Source: Bacteroidota bacterium
GTDB taxonomy: Bacteria; Bacteroidota; Bacteroidia; Bacteroidales; JAAYUG01
Length of the DNA stretch: 64,000 bases
Assembly (NCBI GenBank): GCA_029571215.1
Contig: JAKPTE010000016.1
Coordinates: forward strand, 1 to 64,000
Direction of reading: 5' to 3'
Both the position numbers and the translations under genes were made by a program. The notes under the pieces were generated by a model that saw only the letters and a list, made by a program, of their open reading frames with translations, was not told the DNA's origin and made no database searches. Of the stretch, positions 22,838 through 38,917 are shown one piece after another (positions within the stretch are counted from its first letter, which is position 1; each line of letters starts with the position of its first letter).

Positions 22838-23239
22838 ATGAAACTTGTTGATGAATTCAAAGCCTTTGCCCTGAAAGGGAATGTAGTTGACATGGCCGTA
22901 GGTATCATAATCGGAGCGGCTTTTGGTAAAATCGTCAGTTCGTTGGTAAACGATGTGATCATGCCCCCTCTCGGTCTGCTGATTGGAGGAGTCAATTTCA
23001 CCGATCTGAAAATCACACTTAAAGCTGCCGAAGGTGTAAATCCGCCGGTAACCTTGAATTACGGAAATTTCATTCAGGTGACCTTTGATTTTCTGATTGT
23101 GGCTGCCGCCATCTTTTTTGTGATTAAAGCCATGAATTCCCTTCAGAGGAAACAGGAAACACAGGCGCCTGTCGTTCCGCCGGCTCCGTCAAGGGAAGAA
23201 ACCCTGCTGACGGAGATAAGGGACCTTCTGAAGAAATAA
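22838..23239 (+). CDS. mscL: Large-conductance mechanosensitive channel MscL
   Basis: [41 protein letters not shown]. Confidence 0.97.
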
Positions 23240-29200: not shown

Positions 29201-29449
29201 GACGCTTGGAAAATACTCACGGAAAATGATATCGTGCTACCCGGAGGAGAAACAAAGCGACCCGACAGGATCATGGTGAATCAGGAAAAAACTGTCGTGA
29301 TTGATTACAAATTCGGTGGACAAGCCAGACCTTATCATATCCGGCAGGTAAAAGAATATATGGAACTACTTGCGGAGGCCGGTTTTCCTTTTCCCTGCGG
29401 GATTGTATGGTACCCTCATCTGAACCGGAAAGAACGAATCGACTTATGA
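26267..29449 (+). CDS. UvrD/AddA-like helicase-nuclease
   Basis: Walker A ASAGSGKTWQLTYEY; IDEFQDTSSLQW; MTIHKAKGLEFPVVILP; C-terminal nuclease motif PDRIM...VVIDYKFGG. Confidence 0.92.
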   Translation: MSEVIIYKASAGSGKTWQLTYEYLRILFSKPEDYKHILAVTFTNKATEEMRNRILEELRQMAAGEKTHLARRLVEEGIAYSGDLEKKASHILRILLHNFSKFTVTTIDSFFQHILKSFAREAGIPFYRELILDDKMVLEETIDQLFFHLNEHPFLQEWLVDFTLERIRQGSSWNVHKEVSRLGNEILRESYPGTLATEQPTFTDDQRKEWQGQLFGKEKKLKENLIEIGQQACQIAKRFGLSQDDFAGKSRSVFAYFEQLANGTMKDLTDTILSALTDETKWFSKTSAKKELIRQAMDEGMQTLLARSVDILRELNKIQALARNFYVWAILSDLAGLLQKYLAEQNLHLLSDTHKILYHLIGRNDAPFIYERAGNTWLYYMIDEFQDTSSLQWNNFRPLIANSLSQGKTSLVVGDVKQSIYRWRNSDWRILAREIMHDFPGRNKTEVLPLNRRSFRNIIEFNNAFFFEAIDCLKDKYCEQTSLNTEHDLVGLMKEAYEDCRQGVPEDKMQTTGFVRVELYDAKTEESRTPLRLVETVCELFSSGYRPEDVAILVRTKNEAKAVASWLLNTDYYPPGIAPPGIITEEAILLSQSPVVRILCSLLRYLKNLDDQLNNLSLLNELFMYLEMQLPDGREYPPVTFTRETTENFLPPEFVSQAAELKKLPLQILCGRLASLFGLDRKEQQKPYLFSFMDQVNEAVRKGISDVYGFLDFWDKNAGNLSLTIPEKANAVRIMTIHKAKGLEFPVVILPDPVWCIDHNPTQPPYLWIKQNLFGNEECTWFPVRYGKQLAQTDFRETWLKEKMQTFVDNLNLLYVAFTRAREGLIVISDKDDKLYNARNLIMDVCSRLNDTIVQKQEEDGKIICCRGSFPEPKAGTLSKGEPFHAQDNDGLFATRFALLVKKHASGYFSEKGELVQTARDEGKLMHTLLSKIRHAEDVPAVVQQAVLEGKISKNEAETIQQRIALVLADPEMKEYFTDAWKILTENDIVLPGGETKRPDRIMVNQEKTVVIDYKFGGQARPYHIRQVKEYMELLAEAGFPFPCGIVWYPHLNRKERIDL

Positions 29450-30408
29450 AAGGAAAAACGACATATCCTTGGGGAACGGAAAGACGCTTCCAGGCATACC
29501 CCGATTATTTCCGCAGGCTATTTGGCGGCAGGGTTCAGAAAGTTTCGGTTGATGCCGGACTGACCTGCCCCAACCGTGACGGCAAAAAAGGTACCGGAGG
29601 ATGCATTTTCTGCAATAACGACGCTTTCAACCCATCCTACTGCCAGCCCTCACTCCCAATTAAACAGCAAATCACCGAAGGAATCCGTTTTCACCGCTTC
29701 CGTTACCGAAGAGCGGGTAAATATCTTGCTTATTTTCAGACCTATTCCAATACCTATGCTCCTCTTCCGCGGCTAAAAAAACTATACGAAGAAGCTCTGT
29801 CCTGTGAAGGCGTAATCGGTCTTATCATCAGCACACGGCCCGATTGTGTTGATGCCTCCGTGCTCGATTACCTTGCTTCCCTGTCGGAAAAATACTATGT
29901 AGCAATTGAATACGGAATCGAATCGGTTCGCGATGAAACATTGCAGCGGATTAACCGTATGCATACGTTCAGTGAAGCAGAAAAGGCTCTTGAACTCACC
30001 AGACAAAGGAATCTCCCTGCCGGAGCTCATTTTATCGTTGGTTTACCGGGTGAAAATAATGAGACTATATTGGAAGATATCCGTATTATTGCGGACCTAC
30101 CCCTCGATACGGTTAAATTCCACCAGCTTCAGATTTTTGAAAACACGAAACTGGCTGAAGATTACAGAAAGAATGCATACCCCATTTACCTTCCCTCGCT
30201 TGAGGAGTACCTGAATCTGATGGTTCAGCTTGCCGAAAGGCTCAATCCGTATATAGTAATAGAACGGATTGCCTCGGAAGTGCCTCCCCGGTTTCTTGTG
30301 AACCCAGGCTGGGGTGCCATACGGTATGACGAAATTCAGCGCAGGTTTGAACAATTGCTTGAAGAGAAGCAGACCTGGCAGGGACGTTTGTACAAAAAAT
30401 GTAAATAA
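29446..30408 (+). CDS. Radical SAM protein, YhcC family (TIGR01212-like)
   Basis: VDAGLTCPNRDGKKGTGGCIFCNNDAF; ATGA overlap with the helicase gene. Confidence 0.88.
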   Translation: MKGKTTYPWGTERRFQAYPDYFRRLFGGRVQKVSVDAGLTCPNRDGKKGTGGCIFCNNDAFNPSYCQPSLPIKQQITEGIRFHRFRYRRAGKYLAYFQTYSNTYAPLPRLKKLYEEALSCEGVIGLIISTRPDCVDASVLDYLASLSEKYYVAIEYGIESVRDETLQRINRMHTFSEAEKALELTRQRNLPAGAHFIVGLPGENNETILEDIRIIADLPLDTVKFHQLQIFENTKLAEDYRKNAYPIYLPSLEEYLNLMVQLAERLNPYIVIERIASEVPPRFLVNPGWGAIRYDEIQRRFEQLLEEKQTWQGRLYKKCK

Positions 30409-30428: not shown

Positions 30429-33293
30429 ATGCCCAATCACTTTCTGAAAGAAGTAGCCGAGCACATATACAGCCATCATAAAACCGGCGATGTGGTTCTG
30501 GTATTTCCCAACCGGCGTTCGGTATTCTTTTTCCGCAAATACCTCGGCGAATTAATTGAAAAGCCTGTGCTTATGCCGGAAAGTTTTACCATTAACGAAC
30601 TGTTCAGCCGCATTACAGGTTATGTCGTTCCTGAATCGCTTCCTCTCCTTTTCAGACTATATGATGCATACAAGGAGATTTTCAACAAAGATGCTGAAAG
30701 CATTGATGAATTTGTTACCTGGGGAGAAATCCTCCTGCATGACTTTGACGATACCGACAAATACCTGGTGGATGCTGGTCAGTTATTCCGCAACCTTACT
30801 GACCTCAAAGAAATTGATCAGCTCTTTCCACCAGAAGAAGATCAATATGCAGGCCTGAATACATTTTGGAAAAACCTGGTTTCGGCCCGAAATTCTGAGG
30901 AGAAAGAAAAATTCCTTGCCTTCTGGAACAACCTGTATCCCTTGTATCACCGTTTCAGAGAAAAGTTATCGGCTGAAGGAATTGCCTATGAAGGAATGAA
31001 TTCCCGCGAAGCGATAACAAAACTGGAATCGCTGGATGTGGAGCCCTTTTTGCCGGGTCATCATTGCTGTATTGGTTTTAATGCCCTAAATGCCTGTGAA
31101 AGGAAGCTGTTCAGTATTCTAAGAAAGGCAGGAAAAGCATCTTTCTACTGGGATACGGATCCATGGTATATTGACAACACCTGGCATGAAGCCGGCTTTT
31201 TCCTTAGAAAAAACAGAGAAGAATTTCCTTCTCCCGATGATTTCACTCCGCATTCGGAATTTACAAAATCCAGGCCGGATGTGCAGATAACAGGTCTGCC
31301 CTCATACACAGGGCTTGCTGCATCGGCAGGACGATCGGCTTTCAGTATGTTGTCGGGTTCTGATACTCCCCTCTCCACCGCCATCGTACTTGCTGACGAG
31401 AACCTTCTGATTCCCCTCCTTCAAACTCTTCCTGAGCAATGCAATGCCTACAATGTAAGCATCGGCTTTCCGGTAAGGGAGTCACCGATTTACACCTTCC
31501 TCTTTCAATGGCTTGAACTTCAGAGAAGTTGTAAAGAACATAAGGGTAAACCCTGTTACTATTACCGCCATGTATTTTCTCTGCTCCATCACCCGCTTCT
31601 TGACAGTCTGAAAGTGGAGAAAGAAGAAAATCTGCAACAAATCATCACCTTAAAGATGATCCGTGTACCGGCAGAATTGCTGTGCAGTTCCGACTCCATG
31701 AAGGTTATCTTTGCCCCCTTAACTGATACACGAACCATACCAGCCAGGTTGAAAGACATTCTGGTTCAGTTTTATCAGAAAAACGTGGATAACGATGCCA
31801 TCAATCCTCTTGCGACAATCGAAGGTGAAACTATTCTAACCATCTATCTTGCACTGCAGCATCTGGAAGATCTACTCCCGGAGTCAGCCGGACAACTGCT
31901 GCCTGAGACCTACATACGTATGCTGAGAAATATTCTGCAAAATCTGCACGTACCGCTTTCTGGCGAACCTCTTCAGGGATTGCAGATTCTCGGACTTCTG
32001 GAAACAAGAAACCTCGACTTCGAAAACATCGTCATTCTGCCCGCCAATGAAGGAGTCCTTCCCCGAACCACACAGCCATCATCCTTTATTCCGCAGAATC
32101 TGCGGTATGGATTTGGCATGCCCACAGCTGAGCACCAGGATGCCGTATATGCATATTATTTTTACCGTCTCCTGCAACGGGCCCGCAGGGTGGAAATTCT
32201 ATGGAACACTTCAGCTTCCGGGTTCGATTCGGGAAAAATGAGCCGCTTTGCTTACCAGCTCCTCTATGAACAGCCCTGTAATGTTTCCCTCAACACGTCC
32301 CGAATGAATGTGAGCTTTCAGTCTCCCAAACCAATTGTCATTACAAAAGGCCCCGAGGTGCTGGAACGTCTTTCCCTTTTCACATCCCGTAATGGAAGCC
32401 GCTTTTCCCCTTCTGCACTGGCCGATTATATCCAGTGTCCTCTTCTCTTTTTCTTCCGACATATTGCCCGGGTCAAACCCGGAGAAGAACTTACCGAAGA
32501 GCCTGATGCAGGCATTTTTGGGACACTCTTTCATGAAACCATGCGCTCCCTGTACAGAGGATTTATGAACAAAAACATTACGGAAGAAGTAATTTCCGGA
32601 ATAAGCAATGAACATATCAGCAATGCCGTTGATTCCGCCTTGCGAAAACATATTTACAAACATCTGGCTGCTGATCAACCCGTTGAACCGGAAGGACAGT
32701 TTATTATCATCAGCAACGTACTGAAAGAATATGCTGTAAAAGTTCTTGAAACCGACCGGCGTTTCTGTCCCTATATCCTTACCGGATTGGAACAGCCGCT
32801 TTCCGGCTTTATTGATTTACCCGGGAACCAGCAAATGAAAGGGTTCATGCTCGGAGGAAATGCCGACCGCATCATCAGCCATAACGGAACAACCATCATC
32901 ATTGACTATAAAACCGGCGGGGAAATGAAATCCTTTTCCGGTTTGAACATGCTTTTTACTTCAGAACATGGTAAGGACCTGCGGTTTGCTTTCCAAATTT
33001 GCTTTTATTGCTATCTTTATACGTCAGCCAAGCAGGAAAAGGTTAAACCCGCTGTCTATTTCCTGAGAGAGATGTTTGCTGAAAAGTACGAACCGGCCAT
33101 CGTTTTGAAAGAACCCGGAACCAAAAATGCCGGACAAACAATTGATGATTTTTCACCGTTCATGAAGGAATTCGGGGAAAGACTTCAACAGCTTCTACTT
33201 GAAATATCCAATCCCTCCGTGCCCTTTACCCAAACCAACCAGAAGAACTTCTGCCTGTTCTGCGATTTCAGGGAAGTTTGCCGGCGCAGCTGA
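30429..33293 (+). CDS. PD-(D/E)XK nuclease family, AddB-like, predicted [4Fe-4S]
   Basis: YIQCPLLFFFRHI; GGNADRI...TIIIDYKTGG; C-terminal CLFCDFREVC. Confidence 0.88.
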   Translation: MPNHFLKEVAEHIYSHHKTGDVVLVFPNRRSVFFFRKYLGELIEKPVLMPESFTINELFSRITGYVVPESLPLLFRLYDAYKEIFNKDAESIDEFVTWGEILLHDFDDTDKYLVDAGQLFRNLTDLKEIDQLFPPEEDQYAGLNTFWKNLVSARNSEEKEKFLAFWNNLYPLYHRFREKLSAEGIAYEGMNSREAITKLESLDVEPFLPGHHCCIGFNALNACERKLFSILRKAGKASFYWDTDPWYIDNTWHEAGFFLRKNREEFPSPDDFTPHSEFTKSRPDVQITGLPSYTGLAASAGRSAFSMLSGSDTPLSTAIVLADENLLIPLLQTLPEQCNAYNVSIGFPVRESPIYTFLFQWLELQRSCKEHKGKPCYYYRHVFSLLHHPLLDSLKVEKEENLQQIITLKMIRVPAELLCSSDSMKVIFAPLTDTRTIPARLKDILVQFYQKNVDNDAINPLATIEGETILTIYLALQHLEDLLPESAGQLLPETYIRMLRNILQNLHVPLSGEPLQGLQILGLLETRNLDFENIVILPANEGVLPRTTQPSSFIPQNLRYGFGMPTAEHQDAVYAYYFYRLLQRARRVEILWNTSASGFDSGKMSRFAYQLLYEQPCNVSLNTSRMNVSFQSPKPIVITKGPEVLERLSLFTSRNGSRFSPSALADYIQCPLLFFFRHIARVKPGEELTEEPDAGIFGTLFHETMRSLYRGFMNKNITEEVISGISNEHISNAVDSALRKHIYKHLAADQPVEPEGQFIIISNVLKEYAVKVLETDRRFCPYILTGLEQPLSGFIDLPGNQQMKGFMLGGNADRIISHNGTTIIIDYKTGGEMKSFSGLNMLFTSEHGKDLRFAFQICFYCYLYTSAKQEKVKPAVYFLREMFAEKYEPAIVLKEPGTKNAGQTIDDFSPFMKEFGERLQQLLLEISNPSVPFTQTNQKNFCLFCDFREVCRRS

Positions 33294-33414: not shown

Positions 33415-35163
33415 ATGTTTACTGAATTCACTGACTTTGAAGTCAGAATAACTGATGCACCCTACAGGACTTCCGGAGGACTGATCTGGCCGGGAACTGT
33501 CCGGATCGTCTATACGGATCCTGAAAAGGAAAAGACACTGGAAGAATATTACGGATATGCTCCGGCAGAAATGATTTACCAAATGATCAGGGAAGGCAGG
33601 GATATTAATCTCAGCGAATGCTTCATTGAGAAGTTTTCCCTGACGGAATACCGCAGCCTGCAAAAGTTGGAAGCTAAATCCTATGTAAAACTGGGGGCAT
33701 TTTCAGCGCGAAGGTCCTTTTTCAACTGCAGTTCGCGCATTGATTTCAGTTTTGCCGAATTCAGCGGGGATACTGTGGATTTTGAAGCGACAGTATTTGC
33801 CCGAGGGATGGTATCTTTCAACTCAGCCAGTTTTGCTGACTGCAGTCTGAACATGAGCTACGTACTTTTCCGCAACGGTAACATTGATTTTGCCAACTGC
33901 CGTTTCGGAAAAGGCCAGATTTCGTTCAAAAACAGCAAATTCCATACGGGATCCAAGGATTTTCAATACACCAGTTTCGGGGACGGAGAGGTATTGTTTG
34001 TCAATACCGATTTTGGCGACGGGGATGTGTCGTTTATCAATTCCTCGTTCGGACAGGGAACGGTTTCCTTTAAGGTTGCGCGTTTTGGCCAGGGAAAAGT
34101 TGACTTTCATTACGCCAAATTTGGCGGGGGTGAAATCAGCTTTGAGCGGACGGAATTCGGCAACGGAAAGGTGGATTTCCGGATGGCCGAATTCAACGAA
34201 AGCCGGATAAATTTTAACCGGAGCAGTTTCGGTAATGGAGAGGTAACCTTTGAGGGAAGTGAACTTAAAGGCGGAAAATTGCTTTTCAGAAAAGCATCGG
34301 TAGGGGAAGGATTGTTTTCCTTTGAGCAGGCACTATATCCTGAGGCAGAAGTATTTTTTGACGGGACCGATTTCGGGAAAGGAACCATTACTTTCCAGAA
34401 AGCGCGCATACGGCATCTTTCACTCCGTTCCTGCCAGATGAACGACTATGTTGACCTTCGCATGCAGGAAGCTGCACTCGTAGATCTATCTGATACTGTA
34501 ATCCGGGATATAATTGACCTCACGCCCTATGATTCTCCTGTTGCCATCCGCACGCTGAAGATCAGCGGTATGCGTTTGCCGGGAAGAATCTATATCGACT
34601 GGTTTGCGAATAACCTCCCTTCCATGATTCTGTCGCAGGAACAGGCTACCGAAAGGGAGATCTCGGAACAGTTCAGGATATTGAAACTAAATTTTAATGC
34701 CACGGGACGCTTTTCATACGAAGACCGCGCTTATGTTTTGTTCAGAAGGTACGAAGCCCTGGCTGACCGAAAAGAACGCATTGCGAAAAATCCATGGTCA
34801 GCCCTCTGGGAATATCCAGTGTACGTTTTCAAGTGGCTGGTGTTTGATAAAATTGGTTTGTATGCCACCGCTCCGGGACGGGTGCTGGTAAGTGTCATTG
34901 CTTTCTGGTTTGGCTTTGGAATCCTTTTCTACCTGGCCGAACTGCTCCATCTGGGACATACGCAGTCGGCAGTCAACAACCCTGATCATCTGTCTATGCT
35001 CTCCCAGTCATTTTATCACAGCGCCATCACTTTCTTTACCATCGGGTACGGTGATGTTTATCCCCAGGGCCTTACCCGCCTGTTGTCTGCTCTCGAAGGA
35101 TTCACGGGAGTATTCATGATGAGTTACTTTACTGTGGCCTTTGTGAGGAAGATTTTGAGATGA
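33415..35163 (+). CDS. K+ channel (Ion_trans_2-like) with N-terminal 12-residue tandem repeat domain
   Basis: FGxGxVxFxxAx repeats; pore AITFFTIGYGDVYPQG followed by a TM helix. Confidence 0.88.
   Translation: MFTEFTDFEVRITDAPYRTSGGLIWPGTVRIVYTDPEKEKTLEEYYGYAPAEMIYQMIREGRDINLSECFIEKFSLTEYRSLQKLEAKSYVKLGAFSARRSFFNCSSRIDFSFAEFSGDTVDFEATVFARGMVSFNSASFADCSLNMSYVLFRNGNIDFANCRFGKGQISFKNSKFHTGSKDFQYTSFGDGEVLFVNTDFGDGDVSFINSSFGQGTVSFKVARFGQGKVDFHYAKFGGGEISFERTEFGNGKVDFRMAEFNESRINFNRSSFGNGEVTFEGSELKGGKLLFRKASVGEGLFSFEQALYPEAEVFFDGTDFGKGTITFQKARIRHLSLRSCQMNDYVDLRMQEAALVDLSDTVIRDIIDLTPYDSPVAIRTLKISGMRLPGRIYIDWFANNLPSMILSQEQATEREISEQFRILKLNFNATGRFSYEDRAYVLFRRYEALADRKERIAKNPWSALWEYPVYVFKWLVFDKIGLYATAPGRVLVSVIAFWFGFGILFYLAELLHLGHTQSAVNNPDHLSMLSQSFYHSAITFFTIGYGDVYPQGLTRLLSALEGFTGVFMMSYFTVAFVRKILR
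33724..34407 (+). repeat. Intragenic tandem repeat encoding about 19 dodecapeptides (36-nt codon periodicity)
   Basis: Residues 104-331 align in a 12-residue register, e.g. FGDGEVLFVNTD/FGDGDVSFINSS/FGQGTVSFKVAR/FGQGKVDFHYAK. Confidence 0.9.
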
Positions 35164-36895: not shown

Positions 36896-38917
36896 ATGGA
36901 TGAAGCAAAACTGAATGAGGATCCTCGTCAGGAACATGGGGGTATACCTGAAGGGCCGGTAATGAATCCTGATGATATAGCAGATCCGGTTTCTTCCGAA
37001 TCCGGGACTGATACTGATTCTTCGGCTGCAGAGAACGAAGAATTAACAACTGTTGTTACGGAAGTCCGTTCTGATCCGGCAGGTGAAATTTTGCCCGATG
37101 AGGACCTTTTAACGGAGCACGAAGGTTTATTGCCCGAACATGCTGATGATTTTGAAGGGGTGCACGAAGATCTGGCAAAGGCTGCTGAAGCGGCCGACTA
37201 TTCGCGGCTTGACAGGGCAGAACTCCTTCAGGCACTTAAAAATTTGATTACCAACACACCCATTCATCAGATTGGAGATGAAGCTGACCTGATTAAAATA
37301 AACTTCTACAAGAAACATAAGATCGAAAATGAACGTCGCCGGAAGAAATTCATCGAAGAAGGCGGCAATATGGAAGATTTCCGTCCCGAAGAAGACCCAC
37401 TGGAAGTTGAATTCAAGGAAGTTTTTCATCAGTACCGCGAATTGCGGGCTGAATACAACCGTAAGCTGGAAGAAGAAAAGCAGGAAAACCTGAAAGCCAA
37501 ATACCAGATAATTGAAGAGATTAAAGAACTGGTTAACCGGAGTGAATCAATCAATGCAACTTTTCAGGAATTCAGGGAACTGCAGAAGCGGTGGCGTAGC
37601 ATTGGTCCTGTACCACAGCAGAATGTCAAGGATCTGTGGGAAACCTACAACCACCATGTGGAAGTTTTCTATGACTATATCAAGCTGAATAAGGAACTGC
37701 GCGATCTCGACTTCAAGAAGAATCTGGAAACAAAGATCAGCTTATGTGAACGCGCCGAAGAACTGCTTCTGGAACCGGATGTGCCAAAGGCTTTCAGAAT
37801 CCTTCAGGAACTACACGAGGAGTGGCGCGACACAGGTCCCGTTCCTCATGAAATGCGCGAAGAAATCTGGAACCGTTTTAAGGAAATAACTTCCAAGATT
37901 AACAAGCGGCATCACGAATATTACGAAAGTCTGAAATCACAGCAGGTCAAGAATCTGGAACAGAAGACGGCCCTCTGTGAAAAAGCTGAAGAAATAGCCG
38001 CATCGGGTATCAGCAGTATGAAAGAATGGGAAAAGCGCTACCGCGAGATACTCGATCTGCAACAGGTATGGAAAACGATAGGCTTTGCCCCGAGAAAGGA
38101 AAACCAGAAAATATATCAGCGTTTCCGTGCCGCCTGCGATGATTTCTTCCGCCGGAGGCGTGAGTTCCTCCAGAAAATGAAGGAAGAACAACACAACAAC
38201 CTGCAGCTGAAAACTGAGCTATGCCTGCAGGCAGAAGCTCTTAAAGACAGTAATGAGTGGAAAAAAACCACCGAAGATCTGATCAACATCCAGAAACGGT
38301 GGAAGGAAATAGGACCAGTTCCGCGGAGATATGCCGATGCCATCTGGAAACGTTTCCGTGCTGCCTGTGATGAGTTTTTCAACCGGAAAGCAGCATATTA
38401 CGCGGGAATTGACAGCCAGTACGAAGAAAATCTGAAGAAAAAACTGGAACTGATTGAAGAAATTGAAAAGTACCAGCCTGTGGAAAGCGTGGAAGAAAAT
38501 TTCCGCAATCTGAAAGACTTCCAGAGGCGCTGGGCTGAAATTGGTTTTGTTCCTTTGAAAGATAAGGAACAGGTACAGCAACGTTATAAGGAAGCCATCA
38601 CCCGGCATTTTGAAGGGCTGAAAATGGACGATGAAAGAAAGAATCTGCTTCGCTTCAGAAACCGCCTCGATGCCTTGCAGCAAAAGCCAAGAGGAAACCA
38701 GAAAATAAAAGCCGAACGTGAACGCCTGATCGGAAAGCTAAAACAATTGGAAAACGAAATTTCGCTTTGGGAAAACAATATAGGATTCTTCATCAAGTCA
38801 AAAAATGCCGAGTCAATGATCAGTGAAGTGCAGAAAAAGATTGATGATGCCAAGGCAAGAATTACCGAACTCGAGGAAAAAATCCGCATCATCGATATGC
38901 ATATTTCTGAATCGTGA
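36896..38917 (+). CDS. DUF349-repeat coiled-coil protein
   Basis: Repeated FRELQKRWRSIGPVPQ / LHEEWRDTGPVPHE / LQQVWKTIGFAPRK / IQKRWKEIGPVPRR / FQRRWAEIGFVPLK. Confidence 0.9.
   Translation: MDEAKLNEDPRQEHGGIPEGPVMNPDDIADPVSSESGTDTDSSAAENEELTTVVTEVRSDPAGEILPDEDLLTEHEGLLPEHADDFEGVHEDLAKAAEAADYSRLDRAELLQALKNLITNTPIHQIGDEADLIKINFYKKHKIENERRRKKFIEEGGNMEDFRPEEDPLEVEFKEVFHQYRELRAEYNRKLEEEKQENLKAKYQIIEEIKELVNRSESINATFQEFRELQKRWRSIGPVPQQNVKDLWETYNHHVEVFYDYIKLNKELRDLDFKKNLETKISLCERAEELLLEPDVPKAFRILQELHEEWRDTGPVPHEMREEIWNRFKEITSKINKRHHEYYESLKSQQVKNLEQKTALCEKAEEIAASGISSMKEWEKRYREILDLQQVWKTIGFAPRKENQKIYQRFRAACDDFFRRRREFLQKMKEEQHNNLQLKTELCLQAEALKDSNEWKKTTEDLINIQKRWKEIGPVPRRYADAIWKRFRAACDEFFNRKAAYYAGIDSQYEENLKKKLELIEEIEKYQPVESVEENFRNLKDFQRRWAEIGFVPLKDKEQVQQRYKEAITRHFEGLKMDDERKNLLRFRNRLDALQQKPRGNQKIKAERERLIGKLKQLENEISLWENNIGFFIKSKNAESMISEVQKKIDDAKARITELEEKIRIIDMHISES

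Follow-up and report, generated by a model that had tools for sequence, protein, structure and literature searches.

An open reading frame in the window (the whole stretch of 64,000 nucleotides that was analysed) joins a solenoid of 12-residue pentapeptide-type repeats to a two-transmembrane (2TM) channel of the K+-selective type, and its product is probably a crown-gated K+ channel. We consider it fairly likely that the solenoid, read in a 5+7 register, sits on the channel as a cytoplasmic crown and that the pore is gated via a ligand or partner at this crown. The repeat, its family match, the pore with its filter, the domain order and the conservation are established from sequence or prediction, whereas gating, ligand and oligomeric state are inferred. 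This explanation is preferred because Pentapeptide_3 (PF13576, E 1e-12) and Ion_trans_2 (PF07885, E 2e-11) were both detected in one ORF. It further draws on the confident AlphaFold model with its strand period of 24 residues, on the match to HalA (PDB 9nyi) and the pentapeptides that link HalA to a second channel protein (L023), and on the near-invariant filter and tail, the peak of surface conservation and a dN/dS of about 0.05. The features of the gene and of its upstream neighbors are listed in Table 1.

Table 1. Coordinates of the channel gene, its parts and the upstream cluster, in window positions.
Feature	Position	Strand	Basis or context
AddA-like UvrD helicase, 1083 aa	26198..29449	+	AddAB-like cluster
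Radical SAM protein	29407..30408	+	AddAB-like cluster
AddB-like PD-(D/E)XK nuclease, 954 aa, directly upstream of channel gene	30429..33293	+	Pfam PF12705
12-mer pentapeptide-type solenoid and 2TM K+-type channel, one ORF, 582 aa	33415..35163	+	60 full-length homologues
N-terminal beta/alpha cap, residues 1-91	33415..33687	+	AlphaFold secondary structure
19 in-phase 12-residue repeats, residues 104-331, F-G-x-G-x-[VI]-x-F-x-x-[AST]-x	33724..34407	+	Periodicity, Pfam PF13576
Repeats with most conserved surface, residues 209-283, candidate ligand/partner site	34039..34263	+	Surface-column identity
Less regular C-terminal beta coils, residues 346-400	34450..34614	+	AlphaFold
Conserved helical linker, residues 401-480, KAEQFRILKxNF...DEDxAYxxFKR	34615..34854	+	AlphaFold, alignment
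TM1, residues 487-510	34873..34944	+	AlphaFold; Ion_trans_2 spans 495-580
Pore helix and loop, residues 528-550; filter T-I-G-Y-G-D at 35038-35055	34996..35064	+	Pfam, AlphaFold, alignment
TM2, residues 554-581, and near-invariant C-terminal tail MMSYFTVAFVRKILR	35074..35157	+	AlphaFold, homologue alignment

A 12-residue repeat and its predicted coil

About 19 in-phase copies of a 12-residue unit had been proposed for this protein, in a register other than that of five residues and with copies that are both old and selected, and all of this was borne out. Over residues 93-346, identity was 0.256 at lag 12, 0.287 at lag 24 and 0.307 at lag 36; the best-lag identity of shuffled sequences (n=5000) was <=0.155, so that no shuffle reached the lag-12 value. 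The repeat stretch comprises exactly 19 x 12 residues, and its lag-5 identity is only 0.116. When 21 units were tiled across residues 92-343, Phe was found at position 1 in 15 and Gly at position 4 in 14 of them, V/I/L at position 6 and Phe at position 8 in 18 units each, and A/S/T at position 11 in 17. The 12-mer can be read as a 5+7 register, that is a V-x-F-x-x step followed by an A-x-F-G-x-G-x step with two extra residues, and this reading together with the low lag-5 identity points to a variant rather than a canonical pentapeptide array.

Pairwise DNA identity between repeat units averages just 43%, and the copies are therefore old. In comparison with a congeneric copy of the gene, a dN of 0.067 and a dS of 1.28 were obtained. 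Taken together, the lag-12 signal, the diverged DNA and the low dN/dS show that this is a real repeat, that it is old and that purifying selection acts on it. Long antisense ORFs over the repeat at 33823-34110 (-) and 34110-34409 (-) are probably by-products of the codon pattern and not genes.

An AlphaFold model of the whole protein, built on 38 aligned homologues, reached a pLDDT of 91.4, and the solenoid modelled alone reached 94.8. It contains, in this order, the N-terminal cap, the solenoid up to about residue 400, the linker helices, TM1, a pore helix (residues 528-542) and TM2. The original prediction was of a beta-solenoid or a beta-hairpin stack of unusual rise, to be checked by such a model; a regular beta-solenoid with 24-residue coils was indeed obtained, and hairpin stacking and an unusual rise found no support. 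Autocorrelation of the predicted strand pattern was 0.88 at 24 residues versus 0.46 at 12, so that each coil of the model comprises two repeats and about four short strands. In the sequence itself, no alternation between odd and even units was found.

Short strands around a coil are likewise seen in the quadrilateral beta-helices of MfpA, Qnr and AlbG, which have 20 residues per coil, corresponding to four pentapeptides (PMC8145042), compared with 24 in the modelled solenoid. These proteins were recovered as weak fold matches of the solenoid model alone in the PDB (E 0.02-0.03, TM-scores <=0.3), as were polysaccharide lyase beta-helices; this search gave nothing at E<=0.001 (best E 0.013). A fold search of BFVD likewise yielded no hit at E<=0.001. 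The solenoid also had no match in a sequence search of the PDB. With no fold match at this threshold and no sequence match there, its exact geometry is a predicted one, which counts against the preferred explanation, and it appears to be a 12-mer variant without a solved structure. The Knotted Solenoid fold, which is described as triangular and with fewer Phe (PMC13123833), was set aside.

The channel pore and proposed gating at the crown

The pore was absent from the original prediction. All elements of a 2TM K+ pore were identified in the C-terminal part of the protein, namely TM1, a pore helix, a T-x-G-[YF]-G filter (here TIGYGD) and TM2. An alignment of 60 distinct full-length homologues from across Bacteroidota shows a near-invariant filter and C-terminal tail, and the protein stops just after TM2. 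In 2TM K+ channels the N- and C-termini are both cytoplasmic, and the solenoid should therefore form a cytosolic crown. Homology further predicts a tetrameric channel.

A sample of 99 genomes, in which most families of the window's order are represented by one genome, contained 25 with matches at E<=0.001; about 21 of these matches cover the solenoid and the remainder only the pore. A scan of species genomes yielded 53 loci, in Bacteroidales and as far as Flavobacteriales and Cytophagales. Most homologues have the same number of repeats, as no length change between anchor columns was observed in 37 of the 60. The number is lower by two in a group rich in Flavobacteriales and Cytophagales and higher by about seven in another group. 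In a subfamily of 666-701 aa (L014, L015, L017, L018, L019 and L021), the additional 12-mers, about seven and thus odd in number, would rotate the C-terminal half against the N-terminal one by half a coil. Channels of ~550 aa are encoded at three further loci (L102, L105 and L024); their Ion_trans_2 scores are weak, Pfam finds nothing in their long N-terminal regions, and they may likewise carry a solenoid crown. Mean surface-column identity is 0.54-0.62 in the repeats of residues 209-283, with its peak at repeats 212-283, versus 0.32-0.39 in the first four repeats. If the crown has a binding site, these central repeats are thus its most likely location.

In a search with the whole model, the best match in the PDB was 9nyi, which is HalA, the channel of the Hailong anti-phage system, bound to oligodeoxyadenylate (356 aligned columns, E 7e-4, probability 1.00), with a loose superposition (rmsd 10.3, TM 0.44 by target). 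HalA was absent among the best 50 PDB matches of the solenoid alone; the match therefore stems from the linker and channel or from all parts combined. A profile of the linker found nothing in the PDB, and HalA was not recovered by sequence from it; like the loose superposition, this weighs against the preferred explanation. The pentapeptide-bearing crown of HalA is believed to gate its channel with oligo-dA (title of the PDB entry; PMC13275509, a paper citing the Hailong work).

By analogy with the HalA crown and oligo-dA, a cytosolic ligand or partner would bind the crown of the window protein at the conserved central repeats, and the helical linker would relay this binding to TM1, whereby the pore may open or close. 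The main rival to a ligand-gated crown is a solenoid that serves as a docking rod for a partner protein or as a passive scaffold, on a channel that responds to voltage, tension or ions. Protein binding is how pentapeptide-repeat proteins such as MfpA and Qnr act, and the variation in repeat number between subfamilies would suit a rod. However, the constancy of this number in most homologues and a surface conservation that is concentrated rather than uniform speak against it, and we regard a rod or scaffold as unlikely, though worth serious consideration.

Gene neighborhood and a possible link to AddAB

The channel gene follows addB with a gap of 121 bp, within which no terminator-like site was found. 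In 30 of the 46 loci with enough sequence, it lies directly 3' of the helicase - radical SAM - nuclease cluster. The right-hand neighbor is ribH in 21 of these 30 loci, and at least four further contexts were found in the other nine. The window also contains a second channel gene, encoding the mechanosensitive channel MscL (22838-23239 (+), PF01741, E 4e-46), and a gene for a 673-aa protein with five DUF349 stretches (36896-38917 (+)).

A functional tie of the channel to DNA-end processing is possible. It can be imagined that the crown senses ssDNA or oligonucleotides made or removed by AddAB and thereby alters the flow of K+ when DNA is broken or phages attack. The frequent position just downstream of the cluster, which is kept with right-hand neighbors of at least five contexts, is consistent with this, as is a decayed channel in another sampled genome (G016, L022 1500-1650), of which only filter and TM2 are left and which abuts the addB stop codon. 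Moreover, oligo-dA is the ligand of HalA, which among solved structures is the closest relative by fold. On the other hand, adjacency to the AddAB-like cluster was seen in just six of 22 channel-bearing sampled genomes, the remnant included, and was absent from all Flavobacteriales and Cytophagales loci that were checked; AddB is present in 95 of the 99 sampled genomes, mostly without the channel. Since 21 of the 30 cluster-linked loci share ribH, inherited gene order explains much of the adjacency. With a median net charge of -7, the solenoid of the family is slightly acidic and not basic; a DNA-binding basic face was considered and set aside, as the solenoid is near neutral to acidic. We therefore hold a DNA-responsive channel to be improbable, and give equally little credence to the broader proposal of a housekeeping relative of HalA with a crown gated by DNA fragments or another AddAB-tied signal. 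If true, a HalA-like crown would link DNA-end processing to membrane potential.

Relationship to pentapeptide-repeat proteins and HalA

Returning to the crown itself, the repeat is a 12-residue variant of the known pentapeptide-repeat solenoid, with an unusual register but a known family, and the 12-mer is common elsewhere. The match of the repeat region to PF13576 has 48.5 bits versus a cut-off of 27, and the isolated repeat stretch scores identically to the whole protein; the strict tandem five-residue register A(D/N)Lxx was not found in the 12-mer region. A search for the unit in other proteins had been suggested together with the original prediction, and the 12-mer recurs in plasmid proteins of Streptomyces: tblastn with the 12-mer protein against plasmids returned 78 records, with Streptomyces accounting for 68, and the annotation is mostly 'pentapeptide repeat-containing protein'. 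Two Streptomyces proteins (WP_329583145.1 and WP_266430634.1) each contain >20 copies of this 12-residue unit, of the type F-S-G-G-T-V-S-F-D-G-A-T, and match PF13576 at 5e-29 and 3e-32; one of the Streptomyces 12-mer proteins is 38% identical to the window protein across 223 residues. Unlike in the window protein, Pfam detected no channel domain in the two examined. The period is 11 residues, compared with 12 here, in several PF13576 proteins of related Bacteroidota, and the 12-mer therefore looks like one in a series of spacing variants.

The repeat had been placed outside the pentapeptide repeats, a claim to be given up if a described family with an identical 12-residue unit were found, and Pfam and the Streptomyces matches largely provide such a family. 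A new family unrelated to pentapeptide repeats would accord with the strict 12-residue period, with the solenoid having no sequence match and no strong fold match in the PDB, and with the 11-residue period of the nearby PF13576 proteins. It is nevertheless very unlikely, given that the PF13576 match exceeds the gathering score, that the Streptomyces 12-mers are annotated as pentapeptide proteins and score as strongly as given above, and that the A-x-F and V-x-F pairs retain the i-2/i pattern of pentapeptides.

The 12-mer was also aligned to phrog_25690 (PHROGs, 465 positions, function not assigned), with 150 positions matched to 150 at residues 122-271 (33778-34227; 6e-45), which suggests phage-borne 12-mer solenoids. 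A tblastn search of the phage collection with the 12-mer protein gave no match and no carrier phage of phrog_25690, and no viral contig was confirmed.

With HalA, the window protein shares a pentapeptide-bearing crown and a channel within one protein, in the same order, although the pentapeptide stretch of HalA is much shorter than the solenoid described here. A further Bacteroidota protein, L023 (448 aa), has the domain order of the window protein (PF13599/PF13576/PF00805, then PF07885), but with ordinary pentapeptides instead of the strict 12-mer. It matches HalA 81-161 (E 0.007) via F-x-x-C-x-F pentapeptides, and this stretch of HalA plainly consists of pentapeptides; HalA and the window protein therefore share an architecture in which a channel comes after a pentapeptide-type crown. 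NTP_transf_2 (PF01909), the nucleotidyltransferase domain expected of the Hailong partner HalB, was found on none of the channel-bearing contigs of 21 genomes, where a too-diverged HalB could be missed, and nowhere in the incomplete genome of the window; a conserved HalB-like neighbor was likewise not found across the channel loci. PADLOC, with a library that predates Hailong, gave no match. Despite the shared domain order and HalA being the best solved-structure match, it is thus exceedingly improbable that the protein is HalA of a Hailong system proper, as no nucleotidyltransferase is nearby, the gene is surrounded by housekeeping genes and PADLOC did not recognize it.

The fusion to a channel and the architectural kinship with HalA make the protein more interesting than a plain repeat protein. 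As the 12-mer solenoid recurs from Bacteroidota to Streptomyces, a single structure would account for an entire variant of the pentapeptide repeats that is as yet unsolved. The fusion further sets a broad channel family of Bacteroidota beside HalA, whose control by DNA was described only recently, and raises the question of whether ligand gating is a general role of pentapeptide crowns in the K+ channels of bacteria.
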